Shown here in pieces: positions 22,763 through 61,203 of a DNA stretch of 64,000 nucleotides. The position numbers and the translations under genes were made by a program. Under the pieces are notes generated by a model. The model was not told the origin of the DNA and did no database searches. It worked only from the letters and a program-made list of their open reading frames with translations. The DNA is taken from the NCBI GenBank assembly GCA_949130485.1, contig OX422193.1, positions 1,309,501 to 1,373,500 on the forward strand, read 5' to 3'. Within the stretch, counting starts at the first letter, position 1; each line of letters begins with the position of its first letter. Source of the stretch: Agelas oroides (taxonomy: Eukaryota > Porifera > Demospongiae > Agelasida > Agelasidae).

Positions 22763-23171
22763 TAGGTCTTGTCAGTGAACCAATAGCTTAATGACCTATG
22801 ATCCCATGTTCTTGGAGTTGGCCGTGGCCGTTAAGTTGGTCTATCATGAGCAAAATGACAAAAATGATCAGTTAATTTGTACTCATACACATGCTCAAGA
22901 AAACATTTTGTTGCCAGTTGTCATGCTAAACTGAGTGGAAAGTACAAAACCACACCCCATTACTCCAGACTTCCTCCTTCCTCACAAGTTCGATAATCAG
23001 ACATGCACTGCTCAAATTTTATTGCAATGTTTTGATGATGCTGTGATCACCTTCATCAGGCAAGAATCATCGAAACATCTTGAGTGAACATCGAACCAGT
23101 GAGATTATGAACCATGCTACCATGACCCTCAAGTCATACATAACAAATTCCTCCTCTCTCTTCCCACACAG

Positions 23172-25833
23172 GAGGACTCTTGAGCGCAACCTCAGGTGTA
23201 CATGGAGGAGGTGTGTCAGTTAAATCAAGAGATGGTGGTGAGGAACTAAGTACCCCAGCAACGAAGCGTAAATGTGTGCGTGAGGAAAACAGTATGTCTC
23301 TTGTTCCTGATACCCCTCTTGAAAAGTATGCAGATTTTCTTCGAGCATACTACACAGAACATGAGCTAACTTCCGCAAAGTGGCCACATTTAGATGCCAG
23401 AAAGTATGTGAAGCTAGCCGTGATCAGTAATGAGTATGCTAACAGGGAAGATCTGGTAAAATTCAGACAACAAACAATTCATGGTTCCATTGATGATATT
23501 TTAGAGTGGAAAGCTCCTATTAAAATGAAGAATATACTCAAACCAAACTATGTGTATGACGATAAGAACAACAAACAAGCAAAATACCGGGTAACCCAAC
23601 TTTTAATTGAAGGTGCCCCAGGCATCGGCAAATCTACATTTGCATGGGAGGTGTGTCAGAAGTGGGGCCAGCACCAGCTTTTTAAAAAGTATTCCCTAGT
23701 TGTCCTGTTCAAATTTCGAGATAAGAGAGTGCAGGAAGCCAAGAGTGTTTCTGAATTGTTTTACCATCCCAATTCCAACTTGCAGCCTAAAATTGTTGAT
23801 GAAATTACCACAACTGGTGGCCATGGGATTGTACTAATTCTTGAGGGATTTGATGAGGCTCCTGCCTCAAAACGAACAATGGATTCTATTTTTGTTAGGT
23901 TGTTTATTGGCCAAGAACTTCCCAAGGCCACTGTGATCTTGACCACCAGACCCAGTGCTAGTGGAGAGCTTCGTGAACGTTGTAAAGGTAATCATTCCCG
24001 CAGAATTGAGATAGTAGGCTTTGGTAAGAAGGAGATAGATGAGTACATTCAATGTGCTTTCTCAGATGAGCCGTCACAATCAGATTTCAAGGAGTACCTC
24101 TCCCTCTATCCTCACATCCACAGCATGATGTATGTACCACTCAACTCAGCTATAGTAACTCATGTTTATGAGTCTTGTAAGTCAAGTGGTGCAGTTGTTC
24201 CCAAAACCATGACCCAGCTTTACTCATCCCTGATTAGAACCCTACTGCTCCGCTATTTGAAAGATAAAGAGGAGTACAAGGATACATGTACAAATATCAA
24301 CAGTTTCAAAGATCTTCCTCAACCCACGTATGATCAGTTTTGTGAGATTTGTAAAATAGCATACACAGGAATCATGAGTGCTAAGACTCAGCTTATCTTC
24401 CAAGACCTTCCCAGTGACTTTGACCCCCTGGGATTGATGCAGAGCTGTCCAGAGCTATATGTGGACAGGGGGGCTTCTGTTTCGTATAACTTTCTTCACT
24501 TAACGGTCCAAGAGTATTTAGCAGCCTACCACATTTCTCAGCAGAGCATAGATAAGCAGGTAGCATTTATGAGAAAGCAAATTAAAGGTAAGAAGTTGGA
24601 AGTAGTGGTGAGATTTCTAGCAGGCCTCAGTGACTTAGGAAGAGACTTGTGGGATGTTGTGAGAGGATTTGCAAGTAAGGACAAACCACGTGGTTCATGG
24701 TTAGAGGAAGAAACAAACTTTATCAATCTCAAAATCCTTCACTGGCTCTTTGAGTCTCAAGATCCTGCAGCAATCACTAGTGTCCTTGGTTCAGAATGTG
24801 TGTGCTTTAGTCTTCAATGTCGTTTAACTGTTATGGTGCACTGCCATTTGATTGGTACGTTCTGGGATATTGCATTACCCACAGCAGTTGTGACTGGAAG
24901 CTTGAGTTGAAGGACTGTAAGCTGGAATCAGTTGAACTATTTCTGAGAGCATTAAGCCTCCAGCAGGACCAGTGTCAGTTGCCGTCAACAGGGAAGATCA
25001 AGGGGGTGTGGTTTCAGGTGCCAGACCCAGCTGCTGTCCGTTTGTTAGTGGAAAACATGCCACAAATGTTTGTGTTTCGCAACCTGACACATCTTAGTTT
25101 GAGGGGTAATAACCTTACATCAGAAACCTGCAACCTCTTGTCCAAACATACTGAACATCTTGAGTACCTGGACATTAGTATCAACCGCACCATTGGCAGA
25201 GGAGGTGCAGTGAATCTCATCACATCTCTCACTAAGTTTAGTACCATCAGAGAACTGAACTTGTGGCACACTGATATTGGTTTTGAGGACTGCAAGGCCT
25301 TGAGTGAGTTGCTGGCTAGCTCCAAGTGCATAGAAGTGCTTAATATCAGTGGTAATAAGTTATCGCCTGATAGCATTCAGTTGATTGTTGGCAATACTTC
25401 CTTTGAGAAACTGCAAATGTACAACATTAAGTTCAGTTCAGAGAATGTACTCCACCTTGCATCAGTATTGAGAGTGAACACCAGGTTTAAGGAGTTGGAC
25501 ATTGAGTATTGCAATATTCAGAGTAGTGATTCTGTCCACCTAGCAAAGGCACTAGAAGCAAACAGCACTACCCAACTACAAACACTGGAGTTGGGGCGTA
25601 ATCCAATTGGATCAGAAGGTGCAGTTGCTTTTGCTAGTATGCTTAAGAAGAATCAGAGTCTAAAGACACTAGACCTCCATGATGACAGTGTTGGTGTTGA
25701 GGGTGCCTTAGAACTGATTGAGAGTCTGAAACACAATACAACACTGGAGAAACTTGTGCTTTCAAAGAAATGCAAACCACCCTCATTTTCTACACTAGAC
25801 AAGACACTGCAAGATCGTGTCACATTTTCTTAG
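23172..25833 (+). pseudogene. NLR unit A: NACHT-LRR exon with a frameshift
   Basis: The exon begins after CCCACACAG in the same phase as units B and C. The first frame runs to a stop at 24910, and the LRR half is in another frame ending at 25833. Against the paralogues, a 17-base insertion at about 24809-24826 (between CTTTA and ACTGTTATGG) shifts the frame. The NACHT core looks intact: P-loop GAPGIGKST (23612-23638), Walker B ILEGFDEAP and TTRPSAS. The LRR part has ribonuclease-inhibitor-like repeats. Unit A lacks the roughly 220-residue His/Pro/Gln-rich insertion of B and C. No N-terminal Death-fold exon is visible, since upstream lies the bacterial-like ORF and gap. It may yield a truncated NACHT-only protein rather than nothing. 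Confidence 0.82.
24809..24826 (+). other. 17-bp insertion that breaks unit A
   Basis: Unit C reads TGTGTGCTTCAACTGTTATTG; unit A reads TGTGTGCTTTA, then GTCTTCAATGTCGTTTA, then ACTGTTATGG. The short repeat TTTA bounds the extra bases. Both flanks align with B and C in consecutive frames. Confidence 0.8.
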
Positions 25834-32935: not shown

Positions 32936-35900
32936 GTAAGTGTTTAGTGTCTAGAATGAGTCACTGTTGTCTTTATAAAGTACCTTATACTAGAAAATGT
33001 AGAACGTTGTGGGGGTGAGCCTGAGCAAGCAGCTACTATGGCTACACATGAATAGACTAAGCTTCACGCTGAAATCATGAGGTGAATCACTAGCGTTTAT
33101 GAGTGTCGTTTATGCATGACGCTTACCTGAAGCAATCTCAACCCCGCATGTCATTTTGTACGGTCTGCGAGCAGCCTGCCGTTGATGCCGGGTCGGTCCG
33201 TAGCTGCTGTGACAAAAAATAAAAGAAGTAAGGTGCCATGCGTGCTTCAACTTGAGCCGTCTCTGCTATGGTTGCCGACGCTGCACTCTGGCAGTAGCCT
33301 AGCATTGCCCTTCACCTATTGAGGCTACCTATTGTTCAATTTTCAGGAAATATTTAAATGCGAATTTAAAATATACGCAAGCAAGCATAGATAGCTAGCT
33401 AGATACACACACACTTCCGCAATGCAGTCCCACTAGTGTGGGGCTCGCTCAGGCTCGTCCCAATAAGAATTCAGTCCCCCTACATGAATAGTGTAATTCA
33501 ATTTGAGTTCAAAAAAGAAACAAAGCTTGCGGAGCTGATAATTACGACCCATTAACTGTGATTCTCTGTTGCCAGAGTCACAGTCTCGGGGACAGTAGAT
33601 AAAGTTGCAAGAATTTTTGTGTTGTTGTGATAGCCTCAAACTTAGGTAATTTTTGGGTGTTGGGGGGAAGGGGTGGGAGGACGCGGAATGAACCAGCTGA
33701 CTGTTATCAAGAGCGCATAAGAACGGGCAGCTAGAGTAAGAACGTGTAATTACGTAAAATTCGAAACCGGGCGGAATTTACTGCAAACACTATATAAAAA
33801 TAGTAACACGTATACGCAGCTGTGCATAGACATAAGCCATTGTTGCTAAGCACGTGATCGGGTGTTCTATTTTTAGTACGGTTCAATAATTTTGCCCAGA
33901 CTACGGCCTTCTATTGGAGTTACACACTCTTACTCTAGCCGCCCGTTCTTATATGCTCTTGCTGTTATGCATAGCACTTCAGCACCCATTCATTGTTTTC
34001 TTGAGCTCCCTGTGAGTTTCCTTCTCAGCAACTTTCGTTCTGACTAACCAGACTCTGGACAAATATGTCACTAAACTGTGCTTGTCTAGCCTCATTCCCG
34101 GGCTCTGCCCAGCTTTCCGTCGCTTGCAGTACAAAAAGTGAGATTTTTGTTCGTGCATAGGAAGAACCTGAGAATGAGGCTAGGTCTTGTCAGTGGACCA
34201 ACAGCTTGATGACCTATGATCCCATGTTCTTGGAGTTGGGCGTGGCCGTTAAGTTGGTCTATCATGAGCAAAATGACAAAAATGGTCTGATCATACACAT
34301 GCTCAAGGGAACATTTTGTTTCCAGTTGTCGTAGTGAACTGAGTGGAAAGTACAAAACCACACCCCATTACTCCAGACTTCCTCTTTTCTCTCCCCACAC
34401 AGGAGGACTCTTGAGCACAACCTCAGGTGCACATGGAGGAGGTGGGTCAGTTGAATCAAGAGATGGTGGTGAGGAACTAAGTACCCCAGCAGTGAAACGT
34501 AAATGTGTGCATGAGGAAAACGGTGTGTCCCTTGTGTCAGGTTTAGGACCATCAATATATGGTGAATCAGTGACCCTACCTAGAGTTGTTACCCATCAAC
34601 ACTATCATCATCCTCAACATCATCTGGTTCAACATTCTAACTCTCAACCTCCTCTCCAAACTTTGTACCACCCACTATTTCATCCTCTCACTCAAGTTGT
34701 GCACCCACCTCCCTACCAACCTCAACCTCCTGTTCAGTCACTTACCTATCAACCTTCACACTGCCCTCCCTTCCAACCACCACTGGGGCAACCTAGTTAC
34801 CAACACACTGAGCCTATCCAGCCTCCATACCACCATCCTTCCTACCACTCTCCCAACCCACCATCCCTTCAACACTCCAACCCACCTACTAGTGAAACTC
34901 CACACCAGCAACCTCATTATCAACTTCATCAAAAGCCGTATCAACCTCCTTACCAATATCCTTTTTCCCATCGTTCACCTGTTCCACTGGGTAAACGTAC
35001 CTACCAACAACTTGGGTACCACCAACCTCCCGCCTTTCAAGCTTTCCAGTTACCTCCCCTTCAACTTCACCAAATACCCTCCCTGCCTTTTTGGCAAACC
35101 TCTTTCCAAGCCCCTGTTCAGCTTCAGCCTGTCGACTCGTATCAATCTTCTCCCTCCCAACATCCCCCTCCCCCTCACCCTGATAGCCCACTTGGAAAGT
35201 ATGCCTTATTTCTTAGAGGATATTACACACAACACCATGCACCCTGTACCAAGTGGCCTCAACTGCACACAAGAAATTACATCAACTTAGCAGTGATCAG
35301 CAATGAGTATGCTAACAGAGCAGATCTGGTGCAGTTCAGGGAGCAAACTATTCGTGGTTGTATTGATGATATTTTAGAGTGGAAGGCACCAATTAGAATG
35401 AAGGATATACTCAAACCAAACCGTATTAAAGAGAATAAGGATAAAGAACAGATTAGAGAATACCCGGTAACCCAACTTCTTATGGAAGGTGCCCCTGGCA
35501 TCGGCAAGTCCACCTTTGCATGGGAGGTGTGTCAGAAGTGGGGCCAGCACCAGCTTTTCAATGGGTATTCCCTAGTGGTCCTGTTGAAGTTTCGAGACAA
35601 GAGAGTGCACGAAGCCAGGAGTGTTTTTGAACTGTTTTACCACCCCAACCTGAAGTTGCAGTCTGATATTGTTGATCTCATTACCACAACTGGAGGCCAT
35701 GGGCTTTTACTAATCCTTGAGGGATTTGATGAGGCTCCTGCCTCAAAACGAACCATGAATTCCATTTTTGTTAGGCTGTTTAGGGGGCAAGAGCTTCCCA
35801 GGGCCACTGTGATCTTGACCACCAGACCCAGTGCTAGTGCAGAGCTTCATCAATTCTGTAATAGTGTGAATTCCCGCAGAATTGAGATAGTAGGCTTTGG

Positions 35901-37872
35901 TAAGAAGGAGATAGATGAGTACATTCGGTGTGCTTTCTCAGATGAGCAGTCACAATCAGATTTCAGTGAGTACCTCTCCCTCTATCCCCACATCCACAGC
36001 ATGATGTATGTACCACTCAACTCAGCTATAGTAACTCATGTTTATGAGTCTTGTAAGTCAAGTGGTACAGTTGTTCCCAAAACCATGACCCAGCTTTACT
36101 CATCCCTGATTAGAACCCTACTGCTCCGCTATTTGAAAGATAAAGAGGAGTACAAGGATACATGTACAAATATCAACAGTTTCAAAGATCTTCCTCAACC
36201 TGTGAGTGATCAGTTTTGTGAGATTTGTAAAATAGCACACACGGGAATCATGAGTGCCGAGACTGAGCTTATCTTCCAAGATCTTCGCAGTGACTTTGAC
36301 CCCCTGGGACTGATGCAGAGCTGTCCAGAGCTGTATGTGGACAGGGGAGCTTCTGTTTCGTATAACTTCCTTCACTTAACCATCCAAGAGTATTTAGCAG
36401 CCTACCACATTTCCCAGCAGAGCATTGATGACCAGGTAGCATTCATGAGAGAACATCTTGAAAGTGAGAAGTTGGAAGTAGTAGTGAGATTTCTAGCAGG
36501 TCTCAGTGAATTAGGAAGAGACTTGTGGGATGTCGTGAGAGGGTTTGCAACTTATGAACACTACATTAGACTTGAAATCCTGCACTGGCTCTTTGAGTCT
36601 CAAGATTCTTCAGCAATCACCAGTGTCCTTGGTTCTGGCTGTGTGAGCTTTGCCTGTTATAGTAAACTGCCATTTGATTGGTATGTTCTGGGGCATTGCA
36701 TTGCTCACAGCAGTTGTGAGTGGAAGCTTGAGTTGCAGGACTGTGAGCTGGAATCAGTTGAACTATTTCTGAGAGCATTAAACCTCCAGCAGGGCCAGTG
36801 TCAGTTGTCATCAACAGGGAAGATCAAGGAGATGTGCTTGAGTTATGAAGATGAGCCTGACCCAGCTGTTGCTCATTTGTTAGTAGATAACATGGCACAA
36901 ATGTCAGTGTTTCACAACCTCACTCATCTTAGTTTGAGCTTATGTGACCTTACATCAGAAACCTGCAACCTCTTGTCCAGACACACTGACTTGTTACTAC
37001 ACCTTGAGTACCTGAACCTTAGTGACTTTGGCAGAGGAGGTGCAGTGAATCTCATCACATCTCTCACTAAGTTTAGTACCATCAGAGAACTGAACTTGAG
37101 AGAGACTGATATTGGTTTTGAGGACTGCAAGGCCTTGAGTGAGTTGCTGGCTAGTTCCAAGTACATAGAAGTGCTTGATATTCAGGATTATGAAGATGAC
37201 ATTGATGATGCATTTAAATTATCACCTGATAGTGTTAGTTTCATTGTTGATGGTCTTTCTCACAATACCTCTCTTGAGAAACTGTACATGAGTCAGACCA
37301 ACTTCAGTTCAGAGAATGTATTCCACCTTGCATCAGTGCTGAGAGCAAACACCAGGTTGAAGGAGTTGTACATTGGGTGGTGCAAAATTCAGAGTAGTGA
37401 TTCTGTCCACCTAGCAAAGGCACTAGAAGAAAACACCACTACCCAACTACAAACCCTGTTGCTGGAGGGTAATTCAATTGGATCAGAAGGTGCAGTTGCT
37501 TTTGCCGACATGTTAGCTACAAACAAGAGCTTGGCTGAACTCAACATGAGTAAGTGCAGCATCCAAGGTGAAGGTGTTGTCTGTCTGGCAGAGGCATTGG
37601 AAAAAAATTTCACTGTGAGGGAGTTTTACATTAGTAACAATCTAATTGGATCAGAAGGTGCAGTTGCTTTTGCTAGTATGCTTAAGAAGAATCAGTGTCT
37701 AAAGACACTAGGCCTCGGTGATGACAGTGTTGGTGTTGATGGTGCCTTAGAACTGATTGAGAGTCTGAAACACAATACAACACTGGAGAAACTCGGGCTT
37801 TCAAAGAAATGCAAACCACCCTCATTTTCTACACTAGACAAAACACTGCAAGACCGTGTCAAGTTCTGGTAA
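32632..37872 (+). CDS. NLR unit B: CARD-like Death-fold, NACHT, LRR receptor (2 exons, about 1257 aa)
   Basis: Exons 32632-32935 and 34403-37872 join in phase 1 (A|GA) to a complete frame. Residues about 13-100 form a CARD/Death-fold-like helical domain (REHYSSLYHAIQDPLSLAAR onward). Then follow a Gly/Ser linker, a His/Pro/Gln/Tyr-rich low-complexity region (about residues 148-365), and a NACHT with P-loop GAPGIGKST at about 464, Walker B ILEGFDEAP and TTRPSAS. The C-terminus has roughly eight ribonuclease-inhibitor-like LRRs, including two IGSEGAVAFA modules. Family knowledge: such NLRs are cytosolic STAND ATPases that oligomerise on sensing ligand and signal through homotypic Death-fold contacts. 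The start ATG sits in CATGGCGA context. All domains are open, so it is probably functional. Confidence 0.85.
33708..33961. mobile_element. 254-bp palindromic MITE (CAAGAGCGCATAAGAACGGG family)
   Basis: The ends CAAGAGCGCATAAGAACGGG and its near reverse complement are flanked by CTGTTAT on both sides. Other copies are at 56270-56523 (same duplication block) and 42787-43043. Confidence 0.82.
34087..34182. mobile_element. MITE, CCTCGTTCCCAGGC family (unit B copy)
   Basis: TAGCCTCATTCCCGGGC...ACCTGAGAATGAGGCTA, shared by position with units A and C; GTCTTGTC lies on both sides. Confidence 0.8.
34403..37872 (+). CDS. Unit B exon 2: His/Pro/Gln-rich region, NACHT and LRRs
   Basis: One 3.47-kb exon from CCACACAG to TAA. 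P-loop at 35488-35514; LRRs from about 36.9 kb. Compared with unit C it has a different loop after PNR (IKENKDKEQIREYP) and small changes in nearly every LRR loop, while the NACHT core between 35.9 and 36.4 kb is almost identical. Confidence 0.88.
34560..35210 (+). repeat. His/Pro/Gln-rich low-complexity coding region, unit B
   Basis: Degenerate CAACCTCCTTACCAACC-type repeats encode YQPP/HPPP/QPPY runs. It is absent from unit A, where the flanking residues (SLV...DTPLEKYADFL) are directly joined. Confidence 0.8.
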
Positions 37873-52717: not shown

Positions 52718-52855
52718 GCCATCTTGTACAACTAGTTCTTAGACTAGGCAGATGCTTCATCATGGTGAGATGAACTGTTTAGCATGATACATCTGACTAC
52801 AGCAGTATCAGAGGTAGCTTTCAGCCCATAATCTCCCCCTGCTGCTCCCCTACAG

Positions 52856-53273
52856 ATGCAGACCAGAAACTGGAAGAGCTACCAGAAGGCTTCTCTAAGG
52901 CCACACATCTGCCACTTTTATCAACTCACTCGTGTAGTGCCCAGCTACGTCCTTCCTTTGGCTGTGTGTATTTTGATTCTACCAATGTTAGAACATGTGC
53001 AGCTAGCAGCCACAGACCACATGAACCTCATTGGCCGATGTGGTCACATGCCCTTCAGTTTAGTGCTGTCATCTCTCAACAATGTACTACCAGCCATGGT
53101 CCTTCAGAACAGAGTAGTGAGGCTGAACATTGGATATGCGTCATGTTCCTCATCCCACTTCAGTGTCCGGCATGCTTCTCCCAGTCTTGGTGTCAGGGTA
53201 TACTCCAGAACGGTGGTGATAGTTCTCCTGCTGTTGTTGAGCGGAGACATTGAGGTGAATCCAGGGCCATTAG
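52856..53273 (+). CDS. Unit C exon 1: leader with 2A-like motif
   Basis: Open from ATG 52856 to GTAAGT. Hydrophobic segments VPSYVLPLAVCILILPMLEH and VVIVLLLLL precede the 2A core. Some APE-type non-LTR retrotransposons carry the same aliphatic run plus NPGP, so the exon could descend from such an element. It nevertheless splices in frame (NPGPLG|LHDLS) to the Death exon. Confidence 0.7.
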
Positions 53274-56200
53274 GTAAGTTAGCGTAAGATCTATTATTTG
53301 AAGAACCTTCAACTACCCAGCAGCTTATCTGATTATGGAATAATGTACTGAGTTTCTGGCAGTCATGGTAATAGTTATCAGAACAATTTTTCGACTTTAC
53401 ACTTACTTAGTTATATGTATCATGTATTGCACACTTACACCGAGTTATACATGGTACTCTCATTTGTCCACTCTCTGTATAGGCCTGCATGACTTGAGTG
53501 TCCTGCACCGTGAGCTGCATCCAGTCTCTCACAAGTGGTATTCTCTCGGAATACAGTTGCAAATTCCCGTTGGAACTCTGAAACGTATTGAAATCGAAAA
53601 TCGTCAGCTAACCAATTGTTTGTTAGAAATGTTGACTGTCTGGTTGCAGTGTAGCAATCCCCCACCCACTTTGAGCGTTCTCATTGAAGCACTTGAGAGT
53701 TCTCCTGTGGAGGAGAGGCGCTTGGCCCAACAGCTGAGAGACATGTACAGTCCAGGACGAGAGAGACAGATAACCATTGACTTCCACACACAAGGACCAC
53801 CACCCTCTGGAGTTCTCCCCACTTCACAAGGTAACTAACTCAGTGTACCTAGTACTGTCATGATATGTGGATGTGTTATGTGTGTTGATGTCACAGTATG
53901 CTGTTTGGTGGTAGACATTTGTATATGTCATTTTGTCCACATGCTCCGTTCTCCTGCAGTGCAACTTGGCAGGAGTCAAGGCCACTTTCTTCCATCACAA
54001 GTTCAGACGGCTCCGCTACATCAGTCTACTCAGTCTACTGTCTCCCTCACACAACCACCAGTCACTGCCTGCACAATCTCCACTCACCTCACTCCTCCAG
54101 AGATGACCACACCTCCTCACCCTCACATGGTAGCACACACAGGTATGTCACTTGTAACTGAGTTGCCAATTAGCCTTGTACCCAGGCCCCACCCAGCTTC
54201 CTATTTCAGCAAGAGATGAGAAGCTGGGTAGGACCTGGGAATAAGGCTACCGCAAAGCTGTTTAATCTTATGGTACACTTTGTTTGTGTCATACTGTGCA
54301 CTTGTGCGTGGGTTCTGCGCAGGCACATGGCAGCTGCTGGGCTTGGCTGTAAAGGGGCTGTGTTTGGCATCAGGAAGGCCGATTCTTGCCCTGGCTGCAT
54401 AAATGCGCTTAAAAAACGCTACTCTCACTTTGTAGGGGGTTTATTTCTGACAGGGAAGGCTGTTTGGGTTCTGAATGGGTGTTTGCTAGCCAAGAATACC
54501 AACTATTGCATGCTCGTTAATGAGTGGGCATGGTTAAAGTCATGAATCTGCTTATTGTACCTTAAAGTGCACTTTGGTTCAGTTTTGGAGTCAGGGATCC
54601 GACAGAAATGAAAATATGGTGCATTGAAGGGATGTCTGTGCTAAAAGTAGTCTCAAGGAGAAAAATTTAGGTGGTAAGGGTTAATTGCCGAGCGCAGCGA
54701 GGCTTGGTAATCGTGACGTGGCACCTCGGTGGTGACGTCACGCGGTGATACTGCGTTGCAGTCTCGGCCCCGGGAACGTCAAATGTATGTCACGGTTTTG
54801 GCCTCCGGGGCCCCCCCCCCCCCGCAAGTTTGGCATACGTGATCTTCATCTGTTACTGGGCGTGAGTAAATACGTAAGTGATCGAGTGAGGTATTTTTAC
54901 CTCGACGTCCATCGCTCTTGACCTCGAGGCTAGATGGCGATAGCAAGCAAACGAGTTCGTAGTGAACATCCAGTCAAGCTTCTGTCGGTCGGTTAATGGT
55001 ATTGAGCGAGCTCCGCATAGCAATCTAGCTCAACTTCCAGCGATCAGCGCAGCTTCTGGACTCTATTTGTGGGGATTTACGCTACTGAAAGAAAGTCATG
55101 CACTGTTCCATGAAGGCCATTCAACTGCTGCTGTTCAAAGACTCTCGGGTATTGCAGTCTGTCACTTAGTCATTGAAGCATAGATAATACAGTACTGATT
55201 ATCTATGAATGAAGTTAGTGTCTACCCCACTCAGTATAGTGGCAATGCAAAGTAAATGAATATAAAACTCAACACTTCTTATCCAACCTATGTCATTTCA
55301 ACGGTTGGAATCAATTTCTCGAACACGGCGCCTACATGAGAGACTTTTAGGATTACATGAACTTCAATAAACACACAGTAACACCTACATTTGCTACTTC
55401 ATTTATATTTGACAATTTCATTCCTACATATCATTCACTGCATGTTTGTAGTCGCCAGGCTCTGCTTTGTGCGAGGCTTGCTGCATGTCATGTACCCCTA
55501 GTTAATAAGGGTGGTGTAGTTAGCCTCATGTTAGCCTTGTCCCCTGGCCCTGCCCAGAAAATTGGGAAAGGAGCCTGGTCACACTTGCAAAATGTCTTGT
55601 ATGTGCTGAGTCAGTGTATTATGTAACAGCACATTATGCAATAGCACATGCCTTATGTAAGATCACATGGTAGCCAGTTACAGTTGACAATGGCATTACA
55701 GAATAAGTGAACAGATCTTGCCAAGAAGCGACTAGGGACTAATCAGGGAAGAAAGAATAGTAGCCTATCAAATGTAAATGTTTCTGAATTTCGAGACCGA
55801 CGAAAAGTAAAGCAGCCTCGTTCCCATTTTTAAACAGTCGTGGAATGAGGCTACTAAGTTCACATGTCCAAGAATTAATGGACAAACGTATTCTTGAACA
55901 CGAAACAAAGACTGCTATTAAAATTTACGGTATATGGCCACAAGCAAGCATAGCTAGCTAGCTAGATACACACACACTTCCGCAATGCAGTCCCGCTAGT
56001 GTGGGGCTCGCTCAGGCTCGTCCCAATAAGAATTTAGTCCCCCTACAAACGCACTGAATAGTGTACTTCAATTTGAGTTCAAAAAAGCTTGCGGAGCTGA
56101 TAATTACGACCCATTAACTGTTATTCTCTGTTGCCAGAGTCATAGTCTCGGGGACAGTAGATAAGGTTGCAAGAATTTTTGTGTTGTTGTGATAGCCTCA

Positions 56201-59200
56201 AACTTAGGTAATTTTCGGGTGTTGGGGGGAAGGGGTGGGAGGATGCGGAATGAACCAGCTGACTGTTATCAAGAGCGCATAAGAACGGGCAGCTAGAGTA
56301 AGAACGTGTAATTACGTAAAATTCGAAACCAGGCATAATTTACTGCGAACACTATATAAAAATAGTAACACGTATATGCAGCTGTGCATAGACATAAGCC
56401 ATTGTTGCTAAGCACGTGATCGGGTGTTCTATTTTTAGTACGGTTCAATAATTTTGCCCGGACTACGGCCTTCTATTGGAGTTACACACTCTTACTCTAG
56501 CCGCCCGTTCTTATATGCTCTTGCTGTTATGCATAGCACTTCAGCACCCATTCATTGTTTTCTTGAGCCATCCCTGTGAGTTTCCTTCCCAGTAATTTTC
56601 ATTCTGACTAACCAGACTCTGGACAAATATGTCACTAAACTGTGGTCTTGTCTAGCCTCATTCCCGGGCTCTGCCCAGCTTTCCGTTGCTTGCAGTGCAA
56701 AAAGGGAGATTTTTGTTCGTGCATAGGAAGAACCTGAGAATGAGGCTAGGTCTTGTCAGTGGACCAACAGCTTGACGACCTATGATCCTAGCCTCGTTCC
56801 CAGGCCCCGCCCAGCTTTCCGTCGCTTGCAGTACGGAAAAGCCATGGAGAGCCTGGTATCTTTTCTCACGTGAGCATGACGTAATCGGAAAATGGCGAAA
56901 TTTTGCAGAACTACCAGGCTGCGTTTCGCGTATTTTAAACCGACTACACACTCAACGCTTGGTGTGTAAGACAGTCGCCTCCCGCTAGCTAGATACGTGT
57001 GGTAAGTTACCTGGTACCTTGACTCTTTTCGCTGTTCTGGGCCCGGTGCGCCCACGCACAATTAAACCCTTTCTACCATCCTTTCTATCCTGACGTCACT
57101 CACGTGAGAAAAGATACCAGGCCCTCTCCCGCTTTACTGTACTAATAAGCGATGGAAAGCTGGGCGGGGCCTGGGAACGAGGCTACTATGATCCCATGTT
57201 CTTGGAGTTGGGTGTGGCCGTTAAGTTGGTCTATCATGAGCAAAATGACAAAAATGGTCTGATCATACACATGCTCAAGGGAACATTTTGTTGCCAGTTG
57301 TCGTGTTGAACTGAGTGGAAAGTACAAAACCACACCCCATTACTCCAGACTTCCTCCCTTCTCTCCCCACACAGGAGGACTCTTGAGCACAACCTCAGGT
57401 GCACATGAAGGAGGTTGGTCAGTTGAATCAAGAGATGGTGGTGAGGAACTAAGTACCCCAGCAGTGAAACGTAAATGTGTGCATGAGGAAAACGGTGTGT
57501 CCCTTGTGTCAGGTTTAGGACCATCAATATATGGTGAATCAGTGACCCTACCTAGAGTTGTTACCCATCAACACTATCAGAATCAACATCCTCCTCACCA
57601 TCATCATCCTCAACATCATCTGGTTCAACATTCTAACTCTCAACCTCCTCTCCAAACTTTGTACCACCCACTATTTCATCCTCTCACTCAAGTTGTGCAC
57701 CCACCTCCCTACCAACCTCAACCTCCTGTTCAGTCACTTACCTATCAACCTTCACACTGCCCTCCCTTCCAACCACCACTGGGGCAACCTAGTTACCAAC
57801 ACACTGAGCCTATCCAGCCTCCATACCACCATCCTTCCTACCACTCTCCCAACCCACCATCCCTTCAACACTCCAACCCACCTACTAGTGAAACTCCACA
57901 CCAGCAACCTCATTATCAACTTCATCATCAGCCTGTGTATCAACCTCCTTACCAATATCCTTTTTCCCATCGTTCACCTGTTCCACTGGGTAAACGTACC
58001 TACCAACATCTTCGGTACCACCAACCTCCCGCCTTTCAAGCTTTCCAGTTACCTCCCCTTCAACTTCACCAAATACCCTCCCTGCCTTTTTGGAAAACCT
58101 CTTTCCAAGCCCCTGTTCAGCTTCAGCCTGTCGACTCGTATCAATCTTCTCCCTCCCAACATCCCCCTCCCCCTCACCCTGATAGCCCACTCGGAAATTA
58201 TGCCATATTTCTTAGAGGATATTACACACAACACCATGCACCTTGCACCAAGTGGCCTCAACTGGACGCAAGAAATTACATCAACTTAGCAGTGATCAGC
58301 AATGAGTATGCTAACAGAGCAGATCTGGTGCAGTTCAGGGAGCAAACTGCTCGTGGTTGTATTGATGATATTTTAGAGTGGAAGGCTCCAATTAGAATGA
58401 AGAACATCCTCAGACCAAACTGTGTATATGATATTCATGATGATGAGAAACATGAACACCACCCAGTAACACAACTTCTAATTGAAGGTGCCCCAGGTAT
58501 TGGCAAATCAACATTTGCATGGGAGGTGTGTCAGAAGTGGGGCCAGCACCAGCTTTTCAATGAGTATTCCCTAGTGGTGCTGTTGAAGTTTCGAGATAAG
58601 AGGGTGCAGGAAACCAAGAGTGTTACTGATCTGTTTTACCACCCCAACCTGAAGTTGCAGTCTGAAATTATTGATTACATTACCACAACTGGTGGCCATG
58701 GGCTTTTACTAATTCTTGAGGGATTTGATGAGGCTCCTGCCTCAAAACGAACAATGGATTCCATTTTTGTTAGGCTGTTTACAGGACAAGAACTTCCCAA
58801 GGCCACTGTGATCTTGACCACCAGGCCCAGCACTAGTGCAGAGCTTCGTCAACTTTGTAATAGTGTGAATTCCCGCAGAATTGAGATAGTAGGCTTTGGT
58901 AAGAAGGAGATAGATGAGTACATTCAATGTGCTTTCTCAGATGAGCAGTTACAATCAGATTTCAAGGAGTACCTCTCCCTCTATCCCCACATCCACAGCA
59001 TGATGTATGTACCACTCAACTCAGCTATAGTAACTCATGTTTATGAGTCTTGTAAGTCAAGTTGCACAGTTGTTCCCAAAACCATGACACAGCTTTACTC
59101 ATCCCTGATTAGAACCCTACTGCTCCGCTATTTGAAAGATAAAGAGGAGTACAAGGATACATGTACAAATATCAACAGTTTCAAAGATCTTCCTCAACCT

Positions 59201-60904
59201 GTGAGTGATCAGTTTTGTGAGATTTGTAAAATAGCACACACGGGAATCATGAGTGCCGAGACTGAGCTTATCTTCCAAGATCTTCACAGTGACTTTGACC
59301 CCCTGGGACTGATGCAGAGCTGTCCAGAGCTGTATGTGGACAGGGGAGCTTCTGTTTCGTATAACTTCCTTCACTTAACCATCCAAGAGTATTTAGCAGC
59401 CTACCACATTTCTCGGCAAAGTAGGGACGAGCAGGTAGCATTCATGAGAGAACATCTTGAAAGTGAGAAGTTGGAAGTAGTAGTGAGATTTCTAGCAGGC
59501 CTCAGTGAATTAGGAACAGACTTGTGGGATGTTGTGCGAGAGTTTGCATATAAGGATAACTCTATTAGACTTGAAATCTTGCACTTGCTCTTTGAGTCTC
59601 AAGATGCTCCAGCAATCACTCGTGTCCTTGGTTCTGACTGTGTGTGCTTCAACTGTTATTGTAAACTGCCATTTGATTGGTATGTTCTGGGGTATTGCAT
59701 TGCTCACAGCAGTTGTGAGTGGAAGCTTCAGTTGGAGGGCTGTAAGCTGGAATCAGTTGAACTATTTCTGAGAGCATTAAACCTCCAGCAGGACCAGTGT
59801 CAGTTGTCATCAACAGGGAAGATCAAGGAGATGGGGTTGAGTTATGATGGTGAGCTTGACCCAGCTGTTCATTTATTAGTAAACAACATGTCTCAAATGT
59901 CAGTGTTTCACAACCTGACACATCTTAGTTTGATAGCTTGTGACCTTACATCAGAAACCTGCAACCTCTTGTCCAAACACACTAACTTGCTACAACACCT
60001 TGAATACCTGGACCTTTGTCTCAACTACAACATTGGCAGAGGAGGTGCAGTGAATCTCATCACATCTCTCACTAAGTTTAGTACCATCAGAGAACTGCAC
60101 TTGAATGACACTTGTATTGGTTTTGATGACTGCAATGCCTTGAGTGAGTTGCTGGCTAGCTCCAAGTACATAGAAGTGCTTGACATTGGTGGCAATGAAG
60201 AAGTACTAGGTGGTCGTGGATTATCACCTGGCAGCATTCAGTTGATTGTTGATGGTCTTTCTCACAATACCTCCCTTGAGAAACTGTACATGAGGGGGTC
60301 ATACTTCAGTTCAGAGAATGTACTCCACCTTGCATCAGTGCTGAGGGTGAACACCAGGTTGAAGGAATTGAACATTATGTCGTGCAATATTCAGAGCAGT
60401 GATTCTGTCCACCTAGCAAAGGCACTAGAAGAGAACACCACTACCCAACTACAAACACTGATACTGGAAGATAATTCCACTCTGAGAGAGTTTGACATTA
60501 GTGACAATCCAATTGGATCAGAAGGTGCAGTTGCTTTTGCTAGTATGTTAGCTACGAACAAGAGCTTAGCTAAACTCAACATGAGATGGTGCAGTATTCA
60601 GGGAGAAGGTGCCATCTGTCTGGCAAAGGCATTGGAAAATAACTCCACTCTGAAAGAGTTACACATTTCAATTGGATCAGAAGGTGCAGTTGCTTTTGCT
60701 AGTATGCTTAAGAAGAATCAGTGTCTAAAGACACTAGACCTCCGTCATGACAGTGTTGGTGTTGAGGGTGCCTTAGAACTGATTGAGAGTCTGAAACACA
60801 ATACAACACTGGAGAAACTTGAGCTTTTGGAGAAATGCAAACCATCCTCATTTTCTACACTAGACAAAACACTGCAAGATCGTGTCAAGTTCAGCTACTT
60901 CTAA
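52856..60904 (+). CDS. NLR unit C: 2A-like peptide, Death domain, NACHT, LRR receptor (4 exons, about 1492 aa)
   Basis: Exons 52856-53273, 53483-53830, 53960-54142 and 57375-60904 have GT-AG borders, all introns are phase 1, and the joined frame is complete (1493 codons with stop). Order: 139-residue leader with hydrophobic stretches ending LLLLLSGDIEVNPGP, Death domain (about 141-235), Ser/Thr/Pro/Gln linker (256-316), His/Pro/Gln-rich region (363-587), NACHT with P-loop GAPGIGKST at about 688, and LRRs (about 1130-1470). DxExNPGP is the full 2A consensus, at which ribosomes can release the upstream peptide and continue. N-terminal 2A sequences acting also as signal peptides are known from sea urchin NLRs. 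The exact start is unsure: ATG directly follows CCCCTACAG, so a 5' UTR exon may exist. Confidence 0.83.
53240..53269 (+). other. 2A-like translational recoding motif SGDIEVNPGP
   Basis: Codons AGC GGA GAC ATT GAG GTG AAT CCA GGG CCA encode S-G-D-I-E-V-N-P-G-P, an exact fit to D(V/I)ExNPGP. The release point would be between Gly137 and Pro138 of the protein. The motif is the only NPGP seen in the window. Confidence 0.85.
53483..53830 (+). CDS. Unit C exon 2: Death domain
   Basis: LHDLSVLHRELHPVSHKWYS then LGIQLQIPVGTLKRIEIENR, and further LLEMLTVWLQCSNPPPTLSV LIEALESSPVEERRLAQQL. The W..LG..L.....L..IE pattern and WL......PT...L..AL end are diagnostic of Death domains. Phase 1 at both ends, so the exon is a symmetric, shuffling-competent module. 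Confidence 0.85.
53960..54142 (+). CDS. Unit C exon 3: Ser/Thr/Pro/Gln linker
   Basis: Open, phase 1 on both sides, CTCCTGCAG acceptor and GTATGT donor. Encodes VQLGRSQGHFLPSQVQTAPL onward, disordered in character; no domain recognised. Confidence 0.65.
54680..54835. repeat. Dispersed repeat, inverted relative to 51842-51990
   Basis: AGCGAGGCTTGGTAAT...GCAGTCTCGGCC...GTATGTCACGGTTTTGGCC; intron 3 of unit C. Confidence 0.65.
56270..56523. mobile_element. 254-bp palindromic MITE (unit C copy of 33708-33961)
   Basis: Nearly identical to the unit B copy and in the same relative place, so it was co-duplicated. Confidence 0.82.
56653..56749. mobile_element. MITE, CCTCGTTCCCAGGC family (unit C copy)
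   Basis: TAGCCTCATTCCCGGGC...AGAATGAGGCTA with GGTCTTGTC on both sides; orthologous position to 34087-34182. Confidence 0.82.
56789..57185. mobile_element. 397-bp MITE inserted only in unit C, 9-bp TSD
   Basis: TAGCCTCGTTCCCAGGCCCC ... and reverse complement, with CTATGATCC on both sides (56780-56788 and 57186-57194). Unit B has a single CTATGATCC at the same place, so this is a clean post-duplication insertion with a visible empty site. Confidence 0.93.
57375..60904 (+). CDS. Unit C exon 4: His/Pro/Gln-rich region, NACHT and LRRs
   Basis: Open from CCACACAG to TAA. P-loop at 58487-58513, Walker B ILEGFDEAP, TTRPSTS. LRR loops differ from unit B; one LRR (after LKELHIS) has lost about four residues, running straight into IGSEGAVAFA. 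The P-loop neighbourhood is nearly invariant between the three units. Confidence 0.88.
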
Positions 60905-61057: not shown

Positions 61058-61203
61058 CTCTGGTGTTGAGGGTGCCTTAGAACTGATTGAGAGTCTGAAA
61101 CACAATACAACACTGGAGAAACTCTGCCTTTCCAAGAAATGCGAACCACCCTCATTTTCTACAGTAGACAAAACACTGCAAGATCGTGTCAATTTCGTGT
61201 AAC
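61058..61203 (+). pseudogene. Orphan duplicate of the NLR 3' end (unit C)
   Basis: GGTGTTGAGGGTGCCTTAGAAC ... CAAGATCGTGTCAATTTCGTG TAA repeats the last LRR and stop of the exon ending at 60904, together with the following block. Parallel to 26000-26262 in unit A; unit B has none. Confidence 0.78.

Follow-up and report, generated by a model that had tools for sequence, protein, structure and literature searches.

The window analysed here, a stretch of 64,000 nucleotides of sponge DNA, carries on its plus strand a gene model for an NLR-type receptor in which a leader ending in a 2A-type (StopGo) peptide precedes Death, NACHT and LRR domains. The features of the locus, in window coordinates, are as follows.

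52841 to 52855, plus strand: splice acceptor, a pyrimidine-rich tract plus CAG directly 5′ of the leader ATG (from sequence; layout shared by 16 class A copies)
52856 to 53273, plus strand: leader exon of 139 codons plus 1 nt, with two hydrophobic segments and a C-terminal 2A; class A family
52934 to 52990, plus strand: hydrophobic segment 1, residues 27-45, candidate ER signal or anchor
53186 to 53269, plus strand: hydrophobic segment 2 and 2A core, ...LLLLLSGDIEVNPGP (from sequence, hydropathy and dN/dS)
53274 to 53482, plus strand: intron, phase 1, GTAAGT...TATAG (from sequence; donor position conserved in copies)
53483 to 53830, plus strand: Death exon, entered and left in phase 1 (PF00531, E 1.2e-6)
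53960 to 54142, plus strand: Ser/Thr/Pro-rich linker exon (open frame with a donor at 54143; the next GT tried closes the frame)
57375 to 60904, plus strand: NACHT-LRR exon including the stop codon (PF05729, E 4.8e-22; PF13516 (LRR_6), E 7.9e-14)

Joined, the four exons form a single open frame of 1492 residues with its stop codon at 60902-60904, and all three exon junctions are phase 1; the acceptor of the NACHT-LRR exon lies at 57375 or 57378, the frame being open with either. Death, NACHT and LRR domains within one gene model, here at the DNA level, are what characterizes an NLRD gene. From this arrangement the four exons are predicted to be spliced together in RNA. A first-pass annotation had proposed a 2A-type recoding peptide in frame ahead of a Death-NACHT-LRR receptor, and both the four-exon open frame and the Pfam matches agree with that proposal; its coordinates, motif, donor (GTAAGT at 53274), acceptor (TATAG followed by GC at 53483) and phase were all correct.

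The leader begins MQTRN and ends ...VVIVLLLLLSGDIEVNPGPL, where the GTAAGT donor follows, so that the C-terminus of the 139-residue peptide reads LLLLLSGDIEVNPGP-L. The ATG at 52856 is the likely start codon, and a later in-frame Met is also possible. The sequence DIEVNPGP conforms to the 2A core D(V/I)ExNPGP, and LLLLSG conforms to the upstream hexapeptide of 2A/StopGo elements. NPGP, which occupies residues 135-138 in the leader frame, occurs only once in the six frames of the window, and the predicted skip separates Gly (53264-53266) from the last Pro (53267-53269). Segment 1 has a 19-residue mean Kyte-Doolittle hydropathy of 2.32 and is preceded by five K/R and zero D/E residues. The leader had zero matches in Pfam at E values up to 0.1; a search of about 5.8 billion predicted proteins from public genomes and metagenomes with residues 1-330 returned 3378 candidates, with zero at E 0.001.

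Two further NACHT-LRR exons, at 34291-37869 and 23144-25830, lie in the window on the same strand as the receptor exon and are about 83% and 81% identical, respectively, to its NACHT part. The exon at 23144-25830 spans two frames, the continuation in the other frame being 65% identical. Neither a leader nor a Death exon was detected in the window at these two exons, which offers a natural control for whether the 2A leader was lost or was acquired late. Just 3′ of the receptor stop codon, a short repeat of its last LRR and tail (61062-61196) is 84% identical.

Recurrence of the 2A-Death arrangement

The survey covered the whole genome assembly (259 Mb, 141 contigs). The exact core pattern was found at 161 places and its GTG-codon variant at 120, and the reversed control gave 0 for both; chance is therefore not a fair explanation of the motif. 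Because the pattern searches listed 100 of the 161 and 100 of the 120 places, and the scored searches the best 150 of 229 candidates for the 2A query and the best 150 of 715 for the Death domain of the window, the tallies are lower bounds. The merged lists contain at least 254 distinct 2A-like sites, at least 64 of which are followed on their own strand by a listed Death match no more than 5 kb away; the genome search for NPGP ahead of other Death exons that the first-pass annotation had suggested thus reveals a recurrent arrangement. Viewed from the Death side, at least 66 of the 150 listed matches have a listed 2A upstream. Pairs in other orientations were absent among the listed matches (254 sites and 150 Death matches). 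With the first 2A list alone, 53 of 150 sites were followed by such a Death match, with 0 upstream and 0 on the opposite strand, at 2A-to-Death distances from 10 to 3,910 nt; loci L002 and L004 were tallied as unpaired with this list, yet a Death domain lies downstream of each.

For a closer reading we used 38 distinct 2A sites (40 rows, including two duplicates). A Death frame followed within the stretch examined at 35 of the 38, the three without one being L006, where a listed Death match lies 1.5 kb beyond that stretch, L034 and L039. The stretch examined at L052 likewise held no Death frame. A NACHT match was present further along the same strand at 15 of the 17 loci for which ten kb were taken (not at L029 or L030), and in one of six shorter stretches (L038). 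Two Death frames stand about 0.5-1.3 kb apart at L024 and L028, and at L015 a second one lies about 6 kb on and may belong to another gene.

The exon junction after the 2A is conserved. At 32 of the 38 sites a GT occurs exactly 4 nt past the last Pro codon, in keeping with a phase-1 intron, and the donors at these sites are GTGAGT (24), GTGAGG (2), GTAAGT (2), GTAAGC (2), GTGAGA (1) and GTAAAT (1). An apparent GC donor, CTTG followed by GCAAGT, occupies the conserved place after NPGP at L028 (C4:7934000-7943900), and at L041 the donor is absent from its usual place. At L007, L032 and L040 the Death domain continues in the same uninterrupted exon as the 2A; L007 and L032 are close relatives, and L040 is not closely related to either. 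The fusion of 2A and Death is therefore independent of the predicted splicing. L037 is also open into the Death domain, but because the usual donor is present this is probably an open intron. These observations bear on the idea that the leader is a separate gene whose exon is never spliced to the Death exon, an account that we hold to be very improbable in view of the single-exon fusions, the phase-1 donor conserved right after NPGP and the strict orientation.

The first-pass annotation had also raised the concern that the upstream exon might come from a retrotransposon. We reject this reading in view of orientation, phase, the single-exon fusions and selection; with its orientation, its phase and NACHT downstream, the exon behaves as part of a host-gene architecture.

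Leader families

The leaders fall into three families, which together occupy 181 loci (not 184, as three loci fall in two classes) and take in 159 of the at least 254 listed 2A sites. A listed 2A stands at the leader end at 64 of 64 class A, 69 of 81 class B and 29 of 39 class C loci, and is thus missing at 12 class B and 10 class C loci; as the class A query excluded the 2A and the class B and C queries included it, retention in B and C is biased. The class A query gave 65 matches at 64 loci, and a listed 2A match lay at most 400 nt downstream in all 65. On contigs C1-C4, where the exact-core lists are complete, the exact core was present for 30 of 31 class A matches, a count free of any choice based on NPGP. 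On contigs with complete lists, eight class B loci (C1/C3), two of them full-length, and one class C locus (C2) have no listed 2A. Leader matches are mostly free of stop codons (183 of 192; 62/65, 80/85 and 41/42 by class).

Class B leaders start MGIDLATW.ARIG and class C leaders contain WRARIG, and the two classes match each other weakly (E ~1e-4); one class A copy matches class B (E 9e-4), and L040 carries a further type of leader outside classes A-C. Leader-2A units of class C form clusters at 9.3-10.1 Mb on C8 and 2.9-3.3 Mb on C7; in the cluster example L054, the 1.4 kb examined downstream contained no Death domain.

In class A, the acceptor layout, CCCTCCAG directly followed by AT, is shared by 16 copies, with ATG in 14 and ATT in two; a 17th row, L003, was excluded from the count because it represents a different place. 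In class B, five distinct copies extend far enough 5′ to be read, and in these the ATG lies 13-16 nt 3′ of an AG. Because 52856 marks a conserved splice acceptor, a 5′ exon must exist upstream of the leader exon, and it is probably untranslated. A comparison of eight upstream stretches did not reveal it: distant copies have the acceptor alone in common, the window had no match at E 1e-4, and close copies align throughout and are hence uninformative on this point.

Selection on the 2A core

We estimated dN/dS by Nei-Gojobori counts, all pairs pooled, from 29 class A leaders chosen for containing NPGP. In this set the ratio was 0.525 for the leader body, 0.452 for the hydrophobic stretch and 0.063 for the nine-codon core, falling to 0.013 when the free x position was left out of the core. 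The residues G, D, E, N, P, G and P are invariant over the 29 leaders while their codons vary. Two of eight slices of the leader body have ratios near 1 (0.95 and 1.14); parts of the leader therefore drift, and constraint does not extend throughout. The strongest argument for skipping as the function of the element is that constraint falls on exactly the residues it would require.

The same data weigh on whether a mobile element was captured beside NLR genes and is now decaying, with the 2A and its leader as functionless remains of it. Such an origin has a precedent in this genome, where other 2A sites lie in open frames resembling mobile elements: in L053 (65-1399) the 2A is followed by a PHD finger and DUF6570, and in L039 (288-2000) by a PHD finger. 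We take these frames to be Helitron-like. At the window, by contrast, the 2A frame continues into Death/NACHT and not into mobile-element domains. A decaying sequence would hardly combine a core dN/dS of 0.013 with abundant synonymous change, keep a listed 2A at every class A locus or remain stop-free in nearly all leader matches, so that this account is largely contradicted and we give it very little credence.

Hydrophobic segments and predicted products

Segment 1 was scored with a cut-off of mean hydropathy ≥1.6, which is the usual cut. It reached or exceeded this value in 26 of 39 leader rows, 60-108 residues ahead of the skip site; the other 13 rows had no clear segment 1 (12 under the cut and one too short), and three of these (L004, L025 and L031) do show it, but 5′ of the Met picked by the script. 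In class B rows the end of the segment lies 60-65 residues ahead of the skip site. For the window the distance to the skip Gly is 92 residues from the end of segment 1 and 8 from the end of the best segment-2 stretch. With room for roughly 30-40 residues in the ribosome tunnel, segment 2 would still be hidden at the moment of the skip decision, and segment 1 would already be exposed.

A hydrophobic run adjoining the motif is by itself no evidence of a signal peptide, because such a tract belongs to known 2A elements: StopGo elements with sequences like LLLLSG upstream of the core have been given a class name of their own (PMC12846837), and in the sea-urchin element mutation of the hydrophobic tract reduces recoding (PMC4981915). 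Since segment 2 resembles the LLLLSG class and mutation of such a tract reduces recoding, we suggest two jobs, with segment 2 serving recoding and segment 1 ER targeting of the leader; the separate upstream segment is the better candidate for ER targeting than the run beside the motif.

With moderate confidence, we favour reading the locus as a sponge NLR gene with a functional 2A at the end of its leader, the predicted products being an ER-directed leader and a cytosolic receptor; the two-product model is favoured because segment 1 lies upstream in 26 of 39 rows. The ribosome would make the leader of about 139 residues, fail to form the Gly-Pro bond at NPG/P, free the leader and continue, so that most receptor would begin Pro-Leu-Gly-[Death] and remain cytosolic. 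The leader would be a product in its own right, probably directed to the ER membrane by its basic N-terminus and segment 1, and with segment 1 already outside the tunnel when skipping occurs it would go to the ER even after successful skipping. In an unskipped minority the receptor would be tethered to the ER or passed into it; alternatively, a translocon opened by the leader might let the receptor in as well. What the DNA establishes is the gene structure, its recurrence, the orientation and the selection on the 2A core, whereas splicing in RNA, skipping and its efficiency, ER targeting and the site of each product are what we infer.

A rather unlikely, though still credible, alternative is dual targeting of the receptor, as the first-pass annotation proposed: skipping would yield the cytosolic form, chains that escape skipping would carry the receptor into the secretory pathway, and the division between the two forms would be the purpose of the arrangement. 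This was demonstrated on reporters for SpNLR2A6, with about 80% recoding and the unskipped form entering the exocytic pathway (PMC4981915); the order Death-NACHT-LRR is as in the sea urchin, and segment 2 is present here. However, segment 2 is accounted for by the requirements of the 2A itself, segment 1 would meet the ER ahead of the skip decision, and full leaders are about 130-170 residues long here, whereas the sea-urchin N-terminus, which combines signal and 2A, has 26 (PMC4981915, in part).

It is improbable, in our estimate, that the leader serves as a signal anchor for a receptor made mainly as an unskipped membrane protein, NPGP skipping being inefficient in this animal. The two hydrophobic segments of the leader would suit such a role, and the suggestion of membrane-bound NLRs in sponges is on record (PMC12909245), but the skip-critical residues are near-invariant while the leader body varies.

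Comparison with known systems

NLRs of Strongylocentrotus purpuratus with N-terminal 2A-like signal sequences were described by Roulston et al. 2016 (PMC4981915), who count 2A copies in 85 of 241 NLRs (introduction) and 14 of 87 (later count). The two systems share D(V/I)ExNPGP with an upstream leucine tract before a Death-NACHT-LRR receptor, and many genomic copies. The 2A thus stands ahead of the Death domain of an NLR in both. By contrast, the 2A of the window is not within about 26 residues of the (presumed) N-terminus of the open leader, where it could double as a signal. Further differences from the sea urchin are a separate upstream hydrophobic segment in most rows, at least three leader families, the number of leader loci, the conserved phase-1 boundary after the 2A and the host, a sponge.

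With the LLLLSG-like StopGo class (PMC12846837) the window element shares the GDIExNPGP core and an L-rich hexapeptide ending in SG, but the elements of that survey are viral, and the activity of the one in the window is predicted from its sequence. Sponge NLRD genes, for example those of Dysidea avara (PMC12909245), have the same domain order and a large copy number; the available text of that paper leaves 2A or a leader unmentioned, with 'leader' and 'signal peptide' occurring 0 times. NLRs, and not sponges, are named among cellular 2A sequences in the portion of PMC11512398 at hand. Among the literature matches listed, no title or abstract opening describes 2A at sponge NLRs. A survey of eukaryotic and viral 2A by Rao et al. 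2025 (Cell Reports) could overlap with the present finding, as could Odon et al. 2013. The latter reportedly described 2A in mobile elements; there, too, a 2A peptide lies in an open frame, but the downstream domain here is Death/NACHT.

N-terminal 2A sequences of sea-urchin NLRs are already in print, and what is new here is the scale, the anatomy of the leader and the phylum. The at least 254 listed 2A-like sites in one animal genome contrast with the reputation of StopGo, used 'only rarely in cellular genes' according to a 2026 paper (PMC12846837). If skipping works, synthesis of the cytosolic sensor would be coupled in fixed proportion to that of a membrane peptide, and one class of receptor would be subject to the same translational device in sponges and in sea urchins, whether by ancient inheritance or by two independent inventions. 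More tentatively, and as a possibility that we rate below even, the sponge may use 2A skipping as a standing device throughout its immune-receptor repertoire, by which several distinct families of membrane leaders are co-produced one-to-one with cytosolic Death-NACHT-LRR receptors from single mRNAs; the leader would be a partner or a membrane sensor, and the share of receptor tied to the membrane would depend on the skip ratio, which might itself respond to translational stress.

Mitochondrial contig and cox1 matches

Contig 141 of the assembly is a 22.4-kb mitochondrial genome. It carries 23 tRNA genes (ARAGORN, run on three pieces), including two for tRNA-Arg and one with the anticodon UCA, and encodes ATP synthase subunit c (PF00137, E 7.4e-12). 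Demosponge mitochondria are marked by numerous tRNA genes and by atp9, and this contig accordingly points to a demosponge as the likely host. On the same contig (L012-L014) the cox1 match is split in two, and a 397-codon frame lies between the halves and overlaps them, which suggests an intron with its own ORF. Another cox1 match lies on a separate contig (C107:16176-16808; L011), has no in-frame TGA and is perhaps of bacterial symbiont origin.
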